A program made the position numbers and the translations under genes. Below are positions 795-57,002 of a stretch of 64,000 nt of DNA, piece after piece. Location of the stretch: positions 112,013,001 to 112,077,000 of the forward strand of contig NC_091117.1 in the NCBI RefSeq assembly GCF_040183065.1, given 5' to 3'. The notes below the pieces were generated by a model that saw only the letters and a list, made by a program, of their open reading frames with translations, searched no databases and was not told where the DNA came from. The DNA is from Periplaneta americana (Eukaryota; Arthropoda; Insecta; Blattodea; Blattidae). Each line of letters starts with the position of its first letter. Positions within the stretch are counted from its first letter, which is position 1.

Positions 795-946
795 CATTAC
801 GCATTATTGATTGAGTCAAAATTTACTTCATTCGGTAAATTTGGACCAAAATTATGAAGGAAAATCGCTCAAATACATGTTCCATAACTGTGGTCCAATT
901 TGACCGAATCAAGTAAATTAGTAGAGATCAATCGAAAATGCGTAAC
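795..946. mobile_element. Short foldback MITE-like sequence
   Basis: Two diverged arms of about 55-60 bp are inverted around a short centre. The left arm begins near 796 (ATTACGCATTATTGATTGA, then TTTACTTCATTCGGT). The right arm ends near 946 (ACCGAATCAAGTAAAT, then ATCAATCGAAAATGCGTAA). No coding sequence is seen. A foldback element or MITE is the simplest reading. Confidence 0.5.
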
Positions 947-987
947 GTCTCGATTGTTTTAAGCCCAAATATGGAATACATCTACGT

Positions 988-1935
988 GATGAATTGCGAA
1001 AGAGATCGTTTGACTCCTGGTGTCAGTTGCCTCATAAGGGGAAAGGTGTAGTCATCTATGAAGAATATCCAAGAGCCAATTCATGGGTCAGCACCAAAAG
1101 GAATTTGTCGTCTTCAGAATATATTAATGCAATCAAGATGTCCTGCAACCTTACTGCAGTGCGCTCCGTTCCTGGCAGAGCTTTCAGCACGACCCGTTGC
1201 CGTCAACCAGGCTGCAACGAGACGGAAACTCTTGGCCACGTGTTGGGCTTTTGTCGGAAAGGAGAGTTATTGCGTAACAACAAGCATCATAGAGTCCGTG
1301 GAGCTATCGCTTGTCTTCTTCGGAACAAGGGTTGGGAAGTTCATGAAGAGGTCCACTGCATTTCTGAAGACGACTCTCACAGAAGAGCGGATATAATAAC
1401 AATAAACAGGCAACAACAAAAGGCTATTATCATAGATCCAACTATACGCATGGAGAGAGATCTAAACCAAGCTCATCAGGTTGATCAGGAAAAGAGGGCC
1501 ATTTATGAAACTTGTATTCCCTACCTTAGTGCCAAGTATAACATTCCTCTCTTCAATTGGTCAGTGATAGGTTTATTTTTTGGTGCTCGGAGTTCTTTAC
1601 CAAAATTTACATATCATTTTTTAAAACAATTATCAATATCATCTTTTGAAATTAAAAAAATCATCTCGCAAATTCTCAAAGATTCCCTGCAGATTATACA
1701 ATTTCATTTATAAAACTCAGAAGGCCTTGATTAAGGATATGCTAATTTTAAATAAAATCTTTTTTTTATTAGTATAATTTAGTCATCTTCTAAGATTTTA
1801 TTTTACAATTGATAATCAATGGTGCTTAATTATTACATTTTATTTTTATAACACTATTCATATTTAATTAATTGTATTTGTTTGCTATTCATTTCCGGAT
1901 CCTTGTGGTCATCCTTAATTAAGGCCGGATGAGTT
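988..1935 (+). pseudogene. R2-clade LINE, C-terminal part of the reverse transcriptase ORF (5' truncated)
   Basis: The open frame from about 994 to 1713 encodes some 239 residues matching the tail of R2/NeSL-type non-LTR retrotransposon proteins. A CCHC zinc knuckle is visible (C-R-Q-P-G-C, then H, then C in LGHVLGFC). It is followed about 60 residues on by RADIITI and AIIIDPT, the acidic pattern expected of the restriction-like endonuclease used by this clade to nick its target. The reverse transcriptase core is absent, so the copy is strongly 5' truncated. The stop TAA is at 1711-1713, and an AT-rich presumed 3' UTR runs to a CT repeat at 1938. R2 relatives often insert in rRNA or other multicopy sites, but no rDNA is visible here, so this family is site-unspecific or displaced. 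The clade call rests on domain order only. The frame is intact, but I regard it as a dead fragment. Confidence 0.75.
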
Positions 1936-1937
1936 TT

Positions 1938-1999
1938 TCTCTCTCTCTCTCTCTCTAGCTCCATTAGATCTCGAGATATTTCAGTTTAAGTAAAAGGTG
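1938..1999. repeat. CT simple repeat and right arm of the flanking inverted repeat
   Basis: A (CT)n run at 1938-1956 ends the R2-like LINE 3' UTR. From 1956 to 1999 the sequence is the inverted counterpart of 723-765. Confidence 0.65.
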
Positions 2000-2072
2000 A
2001 AATTATTTTCCAATTATTTTAATATATACATGACTTCGATGTGCAAACTGTTCAATATATTTACACTTAATG

Positions 2073-2074
<2 letters not shown>

Positions 2075-2103
<29 letters not shown>
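2075..2103. repeat. Poly(A) run, 29 bp
   Basis: An uninterrupted A tract sits between GGC and GGCC. It may be a retrotransposed tail, but the sequence on its 5' side shows no recognisable element. Confidence 0.8.
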
Positions 2104-2106
<3 letters not shown>

Positions 2107-2616
2107 CACCGACAATTTCTAACCTCAAGCTACATAGCATTGCTCATGCTCGTATCGTCAAAGCCGTAGTTCACCAGGTAACATATAATTAAACCATTTA
2201 AATTTGCTGTATTTTGTTTAAGTGTCTAAAATATGTTATAAAATCGAATGGAACGTTGATTCTAGATACATTAGGGCCTCTGAAGAGTGAAATAATAATA
2301 AAATTGATAGAAACAAAATCAACCGAAGCGAATATGAACAGGAAGACCACGTATTATGCCGAAACGGTAATAACAGTCTCAGTAGCGTAAGTCGTCATGG
2401 CATTGGTCTATTGAACAATTTAATAGTAGTACCTGAAAGTTCGAATCTCCCACAATCTTCTTTCTCTAATTACAAATTTGCCATCATATATGTCTCGCAA
2501 AGCTATATTTATGTGGCGACATTGCTTAAAATGTGCCCAAACTCTCTAATACATACTAAACCTCCCTCTCTCTTCCAAGCAATACTCCTACCTGTTAATA
2601 AAACGTTGTGTCTCGT

Positions 2617-2617
<1 letters not shown>
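2104..2617. other. No recognised feature
   Basis: AT-rich sequence. The open frame at 2411-2713 merely runs into the TAA microsatellite (poly-isoleucine) and shows no coding character. Confidence 0.5.
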
Positions 2618-2679
<62 letters not shown>

Positions 2680-3345
2680 TTATTTATTTATACTGGCAGA
2701 GTTAAGGCCCTAGGGCCTTCACTTACACTCAAACAGGTCACAACGTATCCAAGCAGTTAAAATTTAAGAAAAAGTTAAAGAAGAGAATACTAACATATTA
2801 CAAAAAAATAATAGCATAATAAAATCGACACTAGACAACATGAAAATAATACCATAATAGAAAAAAAAGAAAGCAAAATACATTGGAATATAGTAAAATC
2901 AACTCATTTAGTACAAATAGTTAATATGGAAAAGAATATAACAAAATGGAATGTAATAAAATAATAATAAGAAAGAAAAGAAATACGAAATATAAATAAA
3001 ATTCACAATAAAACGGCTATGATAATAAATTCATCGGCTGATAAAGAGAACAAAATGGGGAAAGGAAGGAAAGAAATATATAACCTATATCTTTACAAAA
3101 CTATCGCAGAGAAAAGGGCTTATAACTGAAAGGTATCCGAATTGAAAACGTGCAATTTTAATTATTTTTGAAACTAGACAATGTCCGATAATCTCTGACA
3201 TTTTGAGGTAGAGAGTTCCAGAGATGAGCTGCAGAGACGGTGAAAGATGAAGAGTAGAAGCATAACTCAAAATTTTCTCGGGCTTCCAGCCAGGTCATAA
3301 TTTGGTGATCCACCGACGTTTCGAGGATGTTCTTCTTCCTCATCT
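2618..3345 (-). mobile_element. 5'-truncated LINE (CR1/Jockey group), 3' end with TAA-repeat tail
   Basis: On the minus strand, positions 3343 to about 3100 encode the extreme C-terminus of a LINE reverse transcriptase. The hallmark is FTVSAAHLWNSLPQNVRDYR, interrupted by one frameshift near 3158. It is followed by an A-rich 3' UTR, the near-palindrome AAGGCCCTAGGGCCTT and TAAATAAATAAA, and ends in a TTA/TAA microsatellite at 2618-2679 that serves as the LINE tail. The same layout (palindromic GGCC word, AATAAA, trinucleotide tail) recurs at 40870-41024 in the opposite orientation. Only the 3' 0.7 kb is present, as is usual for LINE copies that stop reverse transcription early. Confidence 0.7.
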
Positions 3346-4063
3346 TCAGGGTTAAATGATATCTAAGTTTTTTTTTATTTTAAGTTGGGGAACTTAATTG
3401 AAGTGAATTTTTATGGCAGGCAGAATAACTGTCTCATGCCCCCATGTTTTAAATTACTACCAGTGCACTTCATTAGAACCCAACCAGGCACCCAGCTTTG
3501 AAGCCGTTAGCCCTGTGAACTTACAATATATTTATTTTCCCCTATTATCATATTACAGGGTTGTTATCTAAGAAATTAGCAAGTTCTTTGTGATAGTAGA
3601 AGAGAAAGAGTGGGGGAAGGGAAGTGGCCCGTGGCCCGTTTCGTTTAGAGCTCATCCCGACATTTGTCTTTGATATCTAAGGGCTTGAATGAATGAATGA
3701 GGGGGGAAGTGGGAGGAGAAACTTTAAAGGTACGTGAAAACACGTCCTTGCAAGGGGAGAGTTGGGGCTGTGAAAAACTGAATATGTGAGCTCCAAGCCT
3801 CTTGGCCACTTGTCTCACTTCGGGTTTCGCCGCCCCAGTGAAGGAGCGCTAGAAATTTCCAGTGGGTAGCCGAAAATGGACGTAACTGATTAGCTACAAC
3901 ATACGGAGGGGGAGGAGGGGCAGAAGTACAGCGACCTGATCCGGAGGAGAGACGCGATGGTACCAACTAGGAGGAGGAGTGATAGAAGTCTAGGCACGAA
4001 ACGGTAATAGCCAGTTTAGCTGTTTGAAAATTCGAACGCGTAGGGATTAATATTAACGGCAAT
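3346..4063. other. No gene recognised; contains first copy of a dispersed repeat word
   Basis: A segment at 3631-3670 (GTGGCCCGTTTCGTTTAGAG, then CTCATCCCGACATTTGTCTT) recurs at 4236-4277. Otherwise I see nothing I can assign. The minus-strand open frame at 3724-3966 has no recognisable product. Confidence 0.5.
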
Positions 4064-6299: not shown

Positions 6300-7672
6300 T
6301 GTAACGGGCGCTTCTTAATTTAAGATTATAACGTATCTTTCATCTCTCGGCTACCATGGACCCTCTGCGTAAACTCTCGAGTTGTGTCATTAAATAGATG
6401 AGACAAAGTTAATAATTAACATAAATTTTAATAACTAACACAATTAAGGAAATAAATAATAATAACATGTACAAATACATGATGAAAAATAATATAACAA
6501 CAAGTTAATTGTACAGCGCCGAAACTACCTATATATCAATTGCCCCAGATAACACTCACAATAACCTACAATGTATACTCTTGGTAAACGTTACACTCCT
6601 CCAAAACCATCCCCAATATAACTATATCACGCAACTACTCTGGTTAACCTAACGTGATACAATCTTACCTAACAGACACAACCATCTTTCATAACTCACT
6701 CTTACATAACCACCCATACCAGTTACAATTATATGCAATTACTTCCTGAAACACTGGCGCATACAATATACCATGTGCCATAACAACCATAGAATCTCGA
6801 ATTCACCACATAATGCCATATGAACTAAACACACACCAAATGAAATCCCCGAAGATGAGTCAGAATCCTAGACACACGTGTCACTGCCATACACCCAAAA
6901 TGACATAACTCGGGAATCACAATTCTCAAGCAGACTCTTACCTGCCCCATATGAACTGCCCGACAACCAGGGCAAATAAATCGGCGTCGCTCCAACGACG
7001 CCGGCTGCCAAACCGCCATATTGGGATGCACATCACTCCGCCGATGTAAATCAGCCAACTTCTTGGATGGTACTCCCATCACAACCACGATGTTTTTGTA
7101 CACAAGTCCAGGAAGAAATACCATCATTGCGGTGATGCTAAGTGCCCCACTCTCAGGGCAAGTATCCCATGGCTCCGACGAAATTAACTATCTGACGCAC
7201 TTTGCGAGTTTCCTACTCGCTGCGACGACGTTAACTCACTCGCCGTCAAGGCAAGAGTCGACAAGACTCCAAAAATGTTCATTACATGACGTTCCGGTCG
7301 AGAGTCCTTTCCACTTCGATGAAATTCACCATGTCGCTCGCACGGAGAGTGCCCTGCACTCCTAACTCTTACTGTGTTCACTCTATGGTGTTCTAGGCGA
7401 GACTCCATTCCAAAGGGGCCCGAACAAAACAGGAAAACACCAAAGTACGTTAGCTTCCAAACCAACCAATCACAAATCAAAGCCTCAAACCCAGGGTGTC
7501 TAAATATACATAATCGAGAATAATCGAAAATACCAAAACGCAACCTAGCGGAGAACACCAAAACCAAAACCCCGCCATCTATGAGAAAGAAACCAAAATT
7601 AAATAGAATAAAAAGAAAAGCACAAAGAATCAACAGGAAGGAAACAAAGTGACGAAAAAAACATTCGTCACA
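6300..7672. repeat. Left LTR (1373 bp) of a non-coding LTR element
   Basis: It starts TGTAACGGGCGCTTCTTAAT and ends ATTCGTCACA, so it has TG...CA ends. It is repeated in direct orientation at 9013-9645 plus 13153-13907, over about 1.38 kb with few differences. Minus-strand frames at 7184-7633 and 13468-13833 are the same LTR sequence in each copy and resemble nothing known, so I treat them as non-coding. A small palindrome (CATTCGTC-ACA-GACGAATG) sits at the LTR/internal boundary, 7662-7680. Confidence 0.85.
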
Positions 7673-9012: not shown

Positions 9013-9645
9013 TGTAACGGGCGCTTCTTAATTTAAGATTATAACGTTTCTTTCATCTCTCGGCTGCCATGGACCCTCTGCGTAAACTCTCGAGTTGTGT
9101 CATTGAATAAATGAGACAAAGGTAAAAATTAACATAAATTTTAATAACGAACACAATTAAGGAAATAAATAATAATAACATGTACAAATACATAATGAAA
9201 AATAATATAACAACAAGTATATTGCACAGCGCCAAAATTACCTATATATCAATTGCCCCAGATAACACTCACAATAACCTACAAAGTACACTCCTCCACA
9301 ACCATCCCCAATATACCTATATCACGCAACTACTCTCGGTTAACGTAACGTGATACAACAGACACAACCATCTTGCATAACCCACTCTTACATAACCACC
9401 CATACCAGTTACAATTATATATAATTACTTCCTAAAACACTCGCGCATACAATATACATGCTATTACCCGCACCATGTGCCATAACAACAATAGAATCTC
9501 GATCTCGCCACATAATGCCATATGAACTAAACACACACCAAATGAAATCCCCGAAGATGAGTTAGAATCCTAGACACACGTGTCACTGCCCATACACCCA
9601 AAATGACATAACTCGGGAATCACAATTCTCAAGCAGACTCTTATC
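9013..9645. repeat. Right LTR, first part
   Basis: Direct repeat of 6300-6945. It breaks off at the 12-bp duplicated target CAGACTCTTATC (9634-9645), where PLE2 begins. Confidence 0.85.
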
Positions 9646-9696
9646 TTTTTTTGCAATTCATTTTGCGTAATTTTCAGAAATGTCTATGAATATGTT

Positions 9697-9861
9697 AGAA
9701 ATTTAATTTTTTTTTTTCAGTCGTTGGCTTTACTACTTTATATATTTTGTTAGGTATTAACCTTTACATAATAAATTGTGTGATGTATGAACGTTTTCGT
9801 TGACCATGTCAACATCATCAGACACACTCTGTCATTTTACAATATCAATACTCTCAGTGTT
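9697..9861 (-). repeat. PLE2 terminal repeat, copy 1
   Basis: The reverse complement of this segment matches 12978-13137 almost base for base (GAGAGTATTGATATTGT, then the ribozyme-like core, then CATCACACAATTTATTATGT). It is the 3' terminal region of the minus-strand part of PLE2. Confidence 0.85.
9776..9830 (-). ncRNA. Hammerhead-ribozyme-like motif in PLE2 (minus-strand copy)
   Basis: The minus strand reads CTGATGA (9815-9821), then a U, a 6-bp helix GTTGAC/GTCAAC with loop ATG, then GAAA (9795-9798), then ACGTTC and ATAC. This matches the hammerhead core order CUGANGA, stem II, GAAA, stem III, UH. Stem III is the self-complementary AACGTT, which would pair best between two molecules, as reported for minimal hammerheads of Penelope-like elements. 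One extra U between CUGAUGA and stem II departs from the canonical core, so activity is uncertain. Confidence 0.6.
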
Positions 9862-10955
9862 ATCTACACAATCTACACATACAATACATGTTTACTATCA
9901 TATGAAGATAAAACCTATTAAAAATTATATGAATTAGTTTTATAATGTTGAATTGTGGATACCCCAACTGTCAACAATTAAAATATACTTATATTATCAT
10001 GGGTATATTCTTTGCAAGTCATCACATGTGAACGATAATATGAACGATGTAATGATATGAGGCTAAAAGTAAGATAAAATATAAAAATGAGCTAACTCTA
10101 TTTAATGCTTTACTATGCATGTGAGGATTTGCAAATTACAATATTTTGTTACAAGGTATTCACTTTTCCATATCATGATGTAAAATTCTAGCCTGTTATA
10201 ACTGCCTATATTTTGTAGATCTTGGTGTTATTATTTATGCCAATATGTTGGGTTTAAACTGTTTATAGTTAATCATATGATGGGCGTATGTTCTGTTGTT
10301 GTTCATGTTACACTGAAAATAATCAAAGTCGTAGGTAGTTAATCAAAATTTGAAACTGATGGATTTGATTTTAATATTTGTAATGTATTAAAATGAAACT
10401 TACGGATAATTATTCAATCTAGTAGTGATGTTGTAGAAGTTTATTTAACATGGTGTGAATCGAAAGTCTGAAATCGCTGAAAGAAATTAAGTGTTGAAAA
10501 TTAATATTAGCTTAGTTAAAACAAATGGTGCGATTTGTTATATAAATTTGATTGAAAGTCCGGTTTCAATTAATGTTGAAAAAATGGGATGGCTACGAAA
10601 TAAACTAAATAAAATGTAAATGTCGGTAATAAATTCTAACTTTGCTAGAGCAAGTCGGAAATATTTAATTATATTAACTACATACATTGAACAATACTCA
10701 CTAGCTGTGGAAGTGTTTTCTGTGGATGTTGGTCGTGTACTGGTTAAGTGGAGACTGTGTACCTGTGTCTAACACAGTTTACGTAAGAAGTAAATAATGC
10801 GCGTATGAATACACCACATCACATGCTGTATAGTGTGTTTTGTAAATTGGGTAAATTTTCATTAATCAATGATTTATCTTTTTTATAATATTTCGAAATA
10901 TAATATTCTTCTGCCGTGTTTATTTGTGTATTATCTTTATATGTTTTGATTATTG
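9862..10955. other. PLE2 3' non-coding region
   Basis: AT-rich sequence between the GIY-YIG block and the terminal repeat of PLE2. No intact frame or further motif recognised. Confidence 0.45.
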
Positions 10956-11140
10956 TTAGGGTATCACTTATTGATCCAAGTTCATGTCCATATTGAATGA
11001 GATGGGATGCATATTTAGATTTTGTTCTGTTGTGTTTAAAATCGGAGATGTGCTCTTTCTATCTTGTTTTAAAATTCCGTTTTGTTTGCCCAATATATTT
11101 GGCAATACAGGTTTTGCACTTTAACATGTATACTCCTTTC
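10956..11140 (-). pseudogene. PLE2 GIY-YIG endonuclease domain
   Basis: The minus strand translates to GVYMLKCKTC, then AKYIGQTKRNFKTR and KEHISDFKHN, followed by a His-rich tail (HLIQYGHELGS). This is the GIY-YIG fold signature with the conserved R in ...QTKRNFKTR and the downstream EH. It lies C-terminal to the RT on the same strand, as in endonuclease-positive Penelope-like elements. In-frame disruptions are present. Confidence 0.8.
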
Positions 11141-11689
11141 ATGTTAATTTTATCGGTGTGGTGTAACGGATTGTTGATATTATTATTTAATTTATTGTTG
11201 GTTTTATATGCTAATTTTATATTTTCTTTTTGGAAAAAGTTTGCTAATTTGTTAGAAATTACTTTATTGTATGTTAACGTTGACCATGTTTTGTTATTTT
11301 CTTTAGTGTTCCTGGATAAAGTAGATGAACTTTTCGTTCTTTATTCATTTTCTTTTTTATGTATTAGTTTTTTTAATTAAGGTTCTGCTATAACCGTTTT
11401 CTTTTGCGATGTTAAAAATATTTTGTATCTCTTTTCTATATTTTGTGCGAGATAAGGGAATCTGTAATGCTCTATTTATTAAATAATGAAACGTGCTCAA
11501 TTTATGAGAAAAAGGATGTTCTGAGGTTGCTGGTATAATATGATTGGTGTGTGTTGGTTTCCTATAAATATCAAAGGATAAGTTATCTTTTTGTTTTATT
11601 ATTTATATATCCAAAAATGGTATGAATTTATTCTTTTCCAATTCAATTGTAAATTTTAGGTTGTTATGGATTTGATTGAAATCGTGTAC

Positions 11690-12430
11690 GATGGAATCAC
11701 TATTCGTTTTGTTGTTATACAGTATATTATAATGGTATCGTCTACATATCTGCGGTAATATGTTATATTGTGTTTATTTAATAAATTTTGAACATGGTTT
11801 CTTCTATGTGCTGCAAAAAGATTTCTGTTAGGATGCCAGATAACGGACTCCCCATTGCTAAACCAGTATTTTGTTTATATATTTTTTGATTAAAAGTGAA
11901 ATAATTTTGTGACGTGCAAAGTGTTAGTAACTGGATTACTTGTTCGATTATGGAATCATTGACTTTGTTTTCACTGAGCTTTCTTTTAATTAATTCTATT
12001 GTTTCTTGAACCGGTATGTTCGTGTATAAATTTTCTATGTCCAGTGATATTAATTTTGTATCTTTGTTAATCGTGATGTTTTTTAGTTCATTTACTAAGT
12101 GTTCTGTATTTCTTATAGAGTATGTGTTTTTCAAATTAAGGGTTTGTTGTAACCATTTTTGCAAGAATTTACTTAGTTTGTAATTGGGTGAGTTCATGCT
12201 ATTAACAATTGGTCGCATTGAGAGAACAGTTTTGTGAGTATTAGGCAAAGCCTTTAGGGTTGGTATTGAAGGCTTCATATTTATGTATCTGCTCGCTTCT
12301 CTTTCTGGAATAATATGTGGTACTGATTTTAATGCTGTTCTGATTTGTTTTTGAAAAGAATCAGTGGGGTCCAGTTTTATTTCTTCAATTTTGGATTTTA
12401 CTAAAAAATCATTAGTTTTCTCATTATATT
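11690..12430 (-). pseudogene. PLE2 reverse transcriptase core
   Basis: The open frame 12278-11778 carries PTLKALPNTHKTVLSMRPIVN, ISLDIENLYTNIP and NTGLAMGSPLSGILTEIFLQ, which are classic Penelope RT motifs. The catalytic YVDDT follows near 11740 after a frameshift. Upstream on the minus strand, to about 12430, the frame reads EKTNDFLVKSKIEEIKLDP, which leads into the RT. The N-terminal part of the same protein lies inverted at 12507-12995. Confidence 0.88.
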
Positions 12431-12506
12431 TGTCTTAATTTATGAGACTTTTGGAAACAATTGACCAATTTTAGACAGCGTAGTTCAGGATAAAATAAAA
12501 TGTTCA

Positions 12507-12995
12507 ATGGACAAAAAATATAACCACCTACAAAACAAATTAGCAACATTAGCAAATAAGAATAACATTTCCAGACATGAACCGACCAAAACAAAAGAAA
12601 AAGAAAATAAGAACCAGTTAAAATTTGTCAACTTATCAAACATTACATTTTCGGATGATGATATTCAAATTCTTAATCAAGGTTATAAAAACAACTTTCC
12701 TCAGACAAACCTTGCCCGAATAGTAGAAGACACAATAATTGAAACCGAAACCATAATCCAAAACAGTTCTCATGAAAATAAAGATTATCTAAGGTATAAT
12801 GCATCTAAAATTATAAATGATTACAAAAATGAACCCAGAACAAATAACCTCATACAGAATGCCAAGAAAATGAAAAGCAAGATAATCAAATTAAAACGAA
12901 AGTTAAAAGAAAATGATTTAGTACATATAAAAGCAGACAAAAACAATGCAATCGTAATCATGACCAAAGACCAATACACTGAGAGTATTGATATT
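12507..12995 (+). pseudogene. PLE2 protein N-terminal region, inverted
   Basis: A Lys/Asn-rich N-terminal segment ends in LVHIKADKNNAIVIMTKDQYTE, the conserved lead-in to the Penelope RT (K-A-D-K-x-N-A-I-V-I-x). It stops exactly where the minus-strand portion resumes (EKTNDFLVK near 12430). The frame then runs into the terminal repeat through a shared ACACTGAG word (12976-12983), suggesting a microhomology join. Confidence 0.8.
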
Positions 12996-13137
12996 GTGAA
13001 ATGACAGAGTGTATCTGATGATGTTGACATGGTCAACGAAAACGTTCATACATCACACAATTTATTATGTAAAGGTTAACACCTAACAAAATATATAAAG
13101 TAGTAAAGTCAACGACTGAAAAAAAAAATTAAATTTC
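12978..13137 (+). repeat. PLE2 terminal repeat, copy 2 (inverted relative to 9697-9861)
   Basis: Same terminal region as at 9697-9861 but on the plus strand. It ends just before the right-hand target duplication at 13141. Confidence 0.85.
13007..13060 (+). ncRNA. Hammerhead-ribozyme-like motif in PLE2 (plus-strand copy)
   Basis: CTGATGA is at 13015-13021, followed by T, a perfect 6-bp helix (13023-13028 with 13032-13037, loop ATG) and GAAA (13038-13041). A palindromic stem III AACGTT then leads to C as the predicted cleavage position (13047), and ATAC pairs with the GTAT just before CTGATGA as stem I. The layout is hammerhead-like, with the same extra U as in the minus-strand copy. Confidence 0.6.
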
Positions 13138-13152
13138 TAACAGACTCTTATC

Positions 13153-13907
13153 TGCCCCATATGAACTGCCGACAACCAGGGCAAATAAATCGGCGTCACT
13201 CCAACGACGCCGGCTGCCAAACCGCCATATAGGGATGCACATCACTCCGCCGATGTAAATCAGCCAACTTCTTGGATGGTACTCCCATCACAACCACGAT
13301 GTTTTTGTACACAAGTCCAGGAAGAAATACCATCATTGCGGTGATGCTAAGTGCCCCACTCTCAGGGCAAGTATCCCATGGCTCCGACGAAATTAACTAT
13401 CTGACGCACTTTGCGAGTTTCCTACTCGCTGCGACGACGTTAACTCACTCGCCGTCAAGGCAAGAGTCTACAAGACTCCAAAAATGTTCATTACATGACG
13501 TTCCGGCCGAGAGTCCTTTCCACTTCGATGAAATTCACCATGTCGCTCGCACGGAGAGTGCCCTGCACTCCTAACTCTTACTGTGTTCACTCTATGGTGT
13601 TCTAGGCGAGACTCCATTCCAAAGGGGCCCGAACAAAACAGGAAAACACCAAAGTACGTTAGCTTCCAAACCAACCAATCACAAATCAAAGCCTCAAACC
13701 CAGGGTGTCTAAATATACATAATCGAGGATAATCGAAAATACCAAAACGCAACCTAGCGGAGAACACCAAAACCAAAACCCCGCCATCTATGTGAAAGAA
13801 ACCAAAATTAAATAGAATAAAAAGAAAACACAAAAATCCAACAGGAAAGAAAAATAACTATATAAAAAATAGGAAGGAAAACAAAGTGACAAAAAAAATT
13901 CGTCTCA
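13153..13907. repeat. Right LTR, second part
   Basis: Continues the right LTR after the PLE2 insertion and ends AAATTCGTCTCA. It is a direct repeat of about 6945-7672. Confidence 0.85.
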
Positions 13908-13908
13908 G

Positions 13909-14376
13909 TTCTTCACATGATGTATGCAACCACCCAACAGTGGTTGCAGCAGGTTGGTGAGGTAGCGGGCCAAACGATACATAGGGCTGCCAATAGCATC
14001 CACTATAGGCCTTAGCGGAACCTCCGGCTTATATATCTTAGGTAGACCATATAACCTGGGTGGTATACTGCCTGACGGTGAAACTAACCGTTTACTCACG
14101 GCGCGGAGACTGGATATCTTAATTAACAGGTTAGTGCGTCTCTCTACTGAGCTAGTGGAATCTTTCTTCAGAATTTTATGGGCCGGATCGTTCAGCAGTT
14201 GATCGATCTTCTCCTGATACTGCGTTGAGGAAAGGAGGACTTTGGCGTTTCCCTTATCCAATGGCAGAACCACTAAATTGTCGTTCGTCCCATCTGCAGG
14301 GCTCTATTCTACTCTGAGCTGATTTTGGCCTTAGGAATGGTGGCCTTGGTAACAGCCCTGGCAACTTCTCGGCGTA
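13909..14376 (-). pseudogene. PLE1: N-terminal half of RT
   Basis: The minus strand from about 14290 to 13909 encodes VLPLDKGNAKVLLS, PPRLYGLPKIYKPEVPLRPI and VDAIGSPMYRLARYL, the N-terminal RT motifs of Penelope-like elements. It ends in HHVKN, which continues into the segment ending at 6299. Beyond 14290 the sequence carries on as the left arm of a palindrome to 14376. Confidence 0.85.
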
Positions 14377-14409
14377 TTTCTTCCACGCTGTCTTGTGGGA
14401 GCTCTTAGA

Positions 14410-14868
14410 TACGCCGAGAAGTTGCCAGGGCTGTTACCAAGGCCACCATTCCTAAGACCAACATCAGCTCAGAGTAGAATAGAGCCTTGCAGATGGGAAG
14501 AACGACAACTTAGTGGTTCTGCCAGCGGATAAGGGAAACGCCACAGTCCATCTTTCCTCAACGCAGTATCCGGAGAAGATAGATCAACTACTGAACGATC
14601 CGGCCTATAAAATTCGCAAGAAAGATCCCACCAGCTCAGGAGAGAGACGCACTAACCAGTTAATTAAGAAATCTAGTCTCTGCGCCTAGAGTAAACGGTT
14701 AGTTTGATCGTTAGGCAGTATACCACCCAGGTTATATGGTCTACCTAAGATACATAAGCCGTAGGTTCCGCTAAGGCCTTTAGTGGATGCTATTGACAGC
14801 CCTACGTATCGCTTGGCCCGCTATCTCACCAACCTGCTGCATTCACTGGTGGGTGGTTTAATACATCG
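14410..14868 (+). pseudogene. Inverted copy of the PLE1 N-terminal region
   Basis: This is the same stretch as 13909-14376 but on the plus strand, separated by a 33-bp spacer (14377-14409). Translation gives VLPADKGNATVHLSS, PPRLYGLPKIHKP and RYLTNLL with stops and changes. It diverges independently from the minus-strand arm (for example G-S-P versus D-S-P), so the palindrome is old. Confidence 0.85.
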
Positions 14869-56930: not shown

Positions 56931-57002
56931 AACTCGATAGCTCAGTGGTAGAGCGCCTGATCGGAGAACAGGAAGTCGCAGGTTCGATTCCCGCTTGAGG
57001 TT
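56931..57002 (+). tRNA. tRNA-like sequence (pseudo-tRNA or SINE head)
   Basis: A 72-nt cloverleaf can be drawn. The acceptor AACTCGA/TTGAGGT has one mismatch, the D arm is GCTC/GAGC, the anticodon arm CCTG/CAGG, the 5-nt variable loop AAGTC, and the T arm GCAGG/CCCGC with TTCGATT loop. Box A (TAGCTCAGTGGTAGAGCG) and box B (GGTTCGATTCC) are intact. The anticodon position reads GGA (Ser), but position 33 is C rather than U and there is no long variable arm as tRNA-Ser needs. A functional tRNA is therefore unlikely and a Pol III SINE head more plausible. Confidence 0.6.

Follow-up and report, generated by a model that had tools for sequence, protein, structure and literature searches.

A Penelope-like insertion with inverted hammerhead motifs

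We analyzed a window of 64,000 nucleotides (nt) from the cockroach Periplaneta americana (RefSeq assembly GCF_040183065.1, contig NC_091117.1, forward-strand positions 112,013,001 to 112,077,000; coordinates below count from its first letter), in which a pair of hammerhead ribozyme-like motifs in inverted orientation had been predicted at the two ends of a Penelope-like element (PLE). The motifs are the ends of one PLE insertion, 9647-13140, which consists of two arms lying head to head, with a motif near the outer end of each (Table 1). The original prediction was right as to the element, the PLE kind of the motifs and their inverted orientation, and the insertion extends somewhat beyond the 9776-13060 given there. 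It is flanked by a target duplication of 13 base pairs (bp), and a paralogous empty site at ~6931, in the other copy of the surrounding repeat, is uninterrupted, with no insertion and one base different. The two copies of this repeat (~6884-7660 and 13141-13870) lie 6209 bp apart, and one of them is split by the PLE insertion.

The left arm contains a tail, the hammerhead, a 3' untranslated part and broken frames for a GIY-YIG endonuclease and a reverse transcriptase (RT). The right arm contains an outer part and an N-terminal part of the PLE frame, the latter apparently reached from the former by a template jump, whose landing point (unit position 892) meets the point at which the left arm stops (unit position 875).

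Table 1. Coordinates of the PLE insertion and its parts (unit positions are those of the L035 copy)
Feature	Positions	Strand	Remark
Left target site duplication CAGACTCTTATCT	9634..9646	.	paralogous empty site
Left arm, cDNA started at site B	9647..12436	-	unit 875-3662
Tail between start sites A and B, left arm only	9647..9693	-	
Hammerhead motif, minus-strand copy	9783..9827	-	predicted cut after 9789
N-terminal part of PLE frame, right arm	12445..12984	+	unit 353-892, then unit 3456-3618
Outer part of right arm, cDNA started at site A (..AAATTTCTAA)	12976..13140	+	unit 3456-3618
Hammerhead motif, plus-strand copy	13009..13053	+	predicted cut after 13047
Right target site duplication CAGACTCTTATCT	13141..13153	.	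paralogous empty site

The positions originally given for the two motifs, 13015-13047 (+) and 9821-9789 (-), were reproduced: CTGATGA starts at 13015 with C17 at 13047 in the plus copy, and at 9821 with C17 at 9789 in the minus copy. Both possess the core CUGANGA .. GAAA with a stem II, and both fall within a 161-nt inverted repeat (9700-9860 / 12976-13136, 96%); stem I differs between the copies (GTGTGT in the minus, GTGTAT in the plus copy). The elements of the plus copy follow in the order stem I, CUGAUGA, U, stem II, AUG loop, GAAA, AACGUU and C17, where AACGUU is self-complementary and shares its first A with GAAA. Stem I closes the core (GUGUAU / AUACAU) with five standard pairs and one G-U pair, and the NUH cleavage triplet is UUC. 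A descriptor scan of the window, for CTGANGA followed by 0-1 extra nt, a 4-8 bp stem II with a loop of 3-8, and GAAA, recovered exactly these two places, each with one extra nt and a stem II of at most 6 bp; 200 dinucleotide shuffles of the window gave a mean of 0.06 such places, and none of the 200 gave two.

A family of head-to-head copies

The frame at 11778-12434 (-) in the window matches RVT_1 (E 3.1e-9), and a comparison with sequences of solved structures at E up to 0.01 returned three matches, all of them telomerase RTs (best 2.5e-4). A further copy, L035, retains an unbroken frame of 811 amino acids (aa), whose C-terminal 176 aa, scanned alone, match the GIY-YIG domain (PF01541, E 1.9e-7); at 0.01 this domain is not reported for the whole 811-aa frame or for the broken pieces in the window.

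Across the 3.23-Gb genome the 37-nt motif occurs in 357 copies (178+179) at up to 3 mismatches, against 0 for a reversed control, and 174 copies are perfect. Taken with a count of 149 tails, this suggests an estimated 150-180 insertions genome-wide. Neighboring motifs within 10 kb of each other were counted among 100 listed of these 174, giving 35 pairs, of which 32 are head to head, 3 tandem and 0 tail to tail. The three same-strand pairs, spaced 3573, 3576 and 3580 bp apart, represent tandem units with a repeated hammerhead-bearing leader (pseudo-long terminal repeat, pLTR); the window itself contains no tandem units. The closest head-to-head pair among the matches listed is C6:148527125 and 148527175, with starts 50 bp apart.

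Start sites of the two arms

Within a play of a few nt, the arms begin at either of two sites, A (..AAATTTCTAAC) or B (..ATGAATTGCAAAA), the latter lying 44 nt downstream of the former on the RNA. Counted from the predicted hammerhead cut, A is ~90 nt and B ~135 nt downstream. In all 47 insertions with both ends typed, one end is an A end and the other a B end; were the ends independent at one half each, the chance of this outcome would be 7e-15. Of these 47, 32 are head-to-head pairs from the list of 100 perfect motifs, and the other 15 are additional loci that were fetched. In 31 of the 32 pairs the letters of both ends were read, and the B end of L028 was assigned by pattern match; only one end was read in L026, L027 and L029. 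The sample was not picked by end type; it derives from 40 scored out of 878 first-look candidates together with the perfect motifs, and represents the best-matching, probably youngest copies rather than a random draw. Twenty loci fetched at full length, along with the window, yielded 18 with two mapped arms, and all 18 combine A with B. The B arm of L033, at ~16 nt, is so short that this locus looked one-armed at first sight.

Pattern coordinates alone assigned one B end to 28 of the 32 pairs, none to 3 and two to 1. When the ends were read in letters, the three pairs without a B end turned out to have B tails that had diverged or shifted, and in the double one B lay inside a tandem unit. Likewise, the right end of C11:87378729 is A, the B-like pattern there being a fortuitous hit in flanking sequence, and C8:111510572 has a left end of A type, a few nt short. 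Runs of A, up to ~28 nt long, are seen at the B ends of L037, L038, L047, L048, L056 and L058, as if the enzyme slipped on an A tract when starting at B. We also considered and dropped an intron reading for the ATG of loop II; in L035 the MNCKIL of the frame lies at site B.

Target sites and the relationship of the arms

We laid out 42 target sites and kept 41, dropping L042 (8 bp); five of the 47 insertions (L028, L030, L033, C8:111510572 and C11:87378729) have no such layout. The duplications are 12 bp long at 24 of the 41 sites and 13 bp at 11, with 3 of 11 bp and one each of 9, 14 and 15 bp. The target is palindromic, TWAAC-N12-GTTWA, with TWAAC outside the left and GTTWA outside the right boundary, and a G lies directly outside at 32/41 right and 26/41 left boundaries. 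As to whether the target decides which side receives A or B, the two sides look alike (G at +1 in 34/41 on the A side and 24/41 on the B side). Such a palindrome is suited to a dimeric endonuclease, and a structure prediction has portrayed the PLE endonuclease as a dimer (PMC11167929).

The arm that reaches further into the element is the A arm in 8 of the 18 loci and the B arm in 10. In four loci (L046, L047, L039 and L050) the A arm extends 52-666 unit positions beyond the B arm, while the tail is present on the B arm and absent from the A arm. Each arm therefore holds sequence that the other lacks, which argues against a snap-back origin of the pair and favors target-primed synthesis from each of the two cut strands. 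At the 19 inner junctions studied, the arms overlap by 1-6 bp in 11 cases, abut in 1 and are separated by filler in 7. The arms diverge by 1.23% within a locus (16 pairs) and by 2.76% between loci (650 pairs), so that the two RNAs will usually have had a common source. At L042, at least, two RNA molecules were probably involved, because its arms differ at 4 sites, each of which is polymorphic in at least 2 other loci. A single RNA as the source of both arms, which we had entertained, is contradicted by these 4 differences and weakly by those at L039 (2) and at L031, L036, L037 and L048 (1 each); 10 of 16 loci show no such arm difference.

Are the hammerheads active?

Minimal PLE hammerheads were reportedly treated by Cervera and de la Pena in 2014 and by Lunse et al. 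in 2017. The covariance-model search proposed for the window motifs gave no hammerhead match, either over the whole window at gathering scores, where the sole Rfam match is a tRNA gene (56931-57002, +), or over 9600-13300 at E up to 10, where none of three matches is a hammerhead. This absence says little because PLE hammerheads are described as minimal and devoid of helix III (PMC6155905, PMC7761336). The cockroach motif resembles them in its type I core and lack of a closed helix III, and its self-complementary AACGUU stem III fits the view that such hammerheads probably act as dimers (PMC7761336). Judged by its letters, then, it would be a putatively self-cleaving hammerhead of the PLE kind, minimal, with AACGUU in place of a closed stem III and one U after the core.

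The extra U, between core and stem II, is present in all 37 arms that could be aligned (two of 39 were too short). In these arms, whose retrieval relied on similarity to the end region, 0 of 666 cells are changed in the core, U, GAAA, ACGTT and C17, compared with 23/3128 cells downstream and 135/4815 upstream. With regard to covariation in the stems, the copies are very similar, and several have a broken, uncompensated top pair of stem II. Selection on the motif was considered and is not claimed, because the aligned arms were fetched by similarity and the genome-wide counts show no clear excess (357 copies against 323 for the next 37 nt downstream, both at up to 3 mismatches).

The motifs could be inactive relics, in which the extra U and unclosed stem III block cleavage. 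The absence of an Rfam match even at E up to 10 would fit this, as would a predicted lowest-energy monomer fold that is not a hammerhead. A functional comparison comes from PAc, the PLE of the anole Anolis carolinensis, whose letters when aligned place one U at the same position before a 6-bp stem II (PMC11167929). The PAc hammerhead cleaves in the presence of its protein and not in its absence, and the substitutions C3G or G8C abolish cleavage (PMC11167929). That the extra U might be a tolerated family feature, one of two options originally offered, accordingly looks right by analogy with the anole. On the other side, even there cleavage required protein, mutants in cleavage had no effect on insertion in vitro, and the RNA-seq data as described in that report contain no reads beginning or ending at the cut (PMC11167929). 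The relic reading is also at odds with four cDNA ends, from three loci, at or near the predicted cut in the cockroach, and we regard it as unlikely.

These ends emerged when 120 arms were examined for an inner end coinciding with the cut. Among 100 listed perfect copies of the downstream segment (of 323 within 3 mismatches), 69 carry a perfect motif and 31 were read. The 31 comprise 25 arms with 1-3 mismatches in the motif, one with an inverted piece (L110), one with an internal deletion (L115) and 4 that end inside or beside the motif. Of 34 further candidates 20 were read, 18 of which keep the motif and 2 end near it. Four ends, in three loci, fall at unit 3524-3528, where the predicted cut is 3527/3528, and two of them, both at C5:61120420-61120540, lie exactly at 3528; the other ends are at unit 3493, 3515, 3532 and 3535. 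Two further arms of the 120, L104 and L151, end elsewhere within the 76 nt leading up to the cut. The ends at the cut are suggestive of cleavage in vivo, in a small sample that is partly blurred by microhomology. At that same C5 locus (L154) one arm reaches the predicted cut, whereupon 25 nt are recopied up to that very point ahead of the junction, as though the template ended at the cut and the enzyme jumped. In L110 (C2:214361819-214361901) the stem-loop of the hammerhead is inverted in situ, the arm being normal in other respects.

A model for two-ended insertion

Taken together, the inverted pair is very probably the trace left by a Penelope-like retrotransposon that was inserted from both ends. 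In the simplest account, target-primed reverse transcription on both sides of a staggered cut, a dimeric RT/endonuclease would cleave a symmetric site on both strands so as to leave 3' overhangs of 12 nt, and each 3' end would serve as a primer within the PLE RNA, with synthesis starting at B on one side and at A on the other. The cDNAs would run for variable distances, and their inner ends would then be joined, often via short microhomology. Because the hammerhead is situated a short way upstream of A and B alike, arms that reach far enough carry the motif, in mirror image. An asymmetric pair of ribonucleoproteins may underlie the A/B exclusivity. The hammerhead would be expected to act in tandem or dimeric RNA, and a cleaved RNA could be used only as a short template, with its end at the cut.

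The alternative of snap-back self-priming holds that a head-to-head inverted repeat arises when a single cDNA (or else antisense RNA) folds back on itself and is then copied. Self-priming of this type was proposed in 2013 for inverted PLE copies, those of Penelope in Adineta vaga (PMC3846280), and it would account for both the head-to-head orientation and the similarity of the arms. It predicts, however, that the second arm is contained in the first and ends at the same start site, and the ends differ in all 47 insertions. The loci in which the A arm runs further while only the B arm holds the tail, and the L042 differences at positions polymorphic elsewhere, likewise speak against it, and we consider it highly improbable.

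That the inverted hammerheads form a selected device, such as sense and antisense self-cleaving ends of one transcript, is hardly credible: the unchanged core of the 37 aligned arms and the 32 head-to-head pairs of perfect motifs would suit it, but inner arm lengths are arbitrary, one side falls short of the motif in L033, L040 and L044, the motif is present because it lies upstream of the start sites, and it is kept about as well as the adjoining 37 nt. A transcript through the whole window element would indeed carry one sense and one antisense copy, as originally noted; a functional role for this arrangement is unsupported, the motifs here, like those in the other insertions read, being the outer parts of cDNA arms joined head to head. 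Two same-sense copies are required for the known type of hammerhead dimer, and tandem units account for just 3 of the 35 neighbor pairs among the matches listed.

We lean slightly toward a stricter form of two-ended insertion, in which the process is obligate: a dimer cuts the palindrome, each side must use a different RNA start site, every new copy is head to head with unlike ends, and the upstream hammerhead cut sets the 5' limit of some cDNAs. Several observations weigh against the two-ended account as such. The sample is confined to the best-matching, probably youngest copies of one family in one genome. Outside the 47, L041 has a duplication and an A end with no recognizable B arm, and the B arm of L044 is perhaps only ~8 nt. 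Within the 47, the start of C9:48941358 falls short of B by ~10 nt and has a long run of A, and L040 and C8:111510572 end 2-4 nt before reaching A. The filler at 7/19 inner junctions measures 1-17 nt. Finally, in vitro the PAc start site is alike on both strands (PMC11167929), and the strict A/B split is therefore unexplained by the PAc work.

Another palindromic fragment in the window

A second palindromic fragment at 13905-14867 has arms (13919-14377 / 14409-14867, 91%) that are also head to head. Its frames resemble a PLE reverse transcriptase by eye; it contains no CTGATGA and gave no Pfam match at 0.01.

Relationship to other elements and implications

In LINE-1 twin priming, inverted and joined cDNAs are primed on both target strands, and only one outer end is the 3' end of the RNA. 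The cockroach insertions differ in that both outer ends are defined start sites. Another parallel is PAc, which like the cockroach element is of the Penelope/Poseidon type, with an RT and a C-terminal GIY-YIG endonuclease and with tandem units bearing a hammerhead with the extra U (PMC11167929). Purified PAc cuts and extends both target strands, starting at two adjacent internal sites, and the interval between these is the tail (PMC11167929); the cockroach element shares this arrangement of adjacent internal start sites bounding an optional tail. The PAc start sites lie 111-118 bp into the frame (PMC11167929), whereas B here is at the frame start. Furthermore, the cockroach sites lie at the distances from the cut given above, and its genomic copies show one site per side. 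The Penelope elements of Adineta vaga are similar in their inverted, mostly head-to-head repeats and in the tail, which is optional on one inverted pLTR, but their target duplications, where present, are 8-10 bp as opposed to mostly 12-13 bp here, and self-priming on an antisense template was proposed for them, as against two separate starts in the cockroach (PMC3846280).

PLE hammerheads and inverted repeats are already known, and motif, family and inverted structure are each of a known kind. A limited search of the PLE integration literature found no statement of a strict rule of one A and one B end. The route of PLE integration and the frequent inversion of copies had been open questions, and an account from 2024 described the later stages of insertion as still awaiting validation (PMC11167929). 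The unusually clean population record of the cockroach family points to two-ended priming with divided start sites, and the position of the hammerhead upstream of both sites explains the inverted pairing of its copies. The 357 motif copies, clean duplications and A and B ends in 47 of 47 insertions yield a sharp prediction for the in vitro PLE system.

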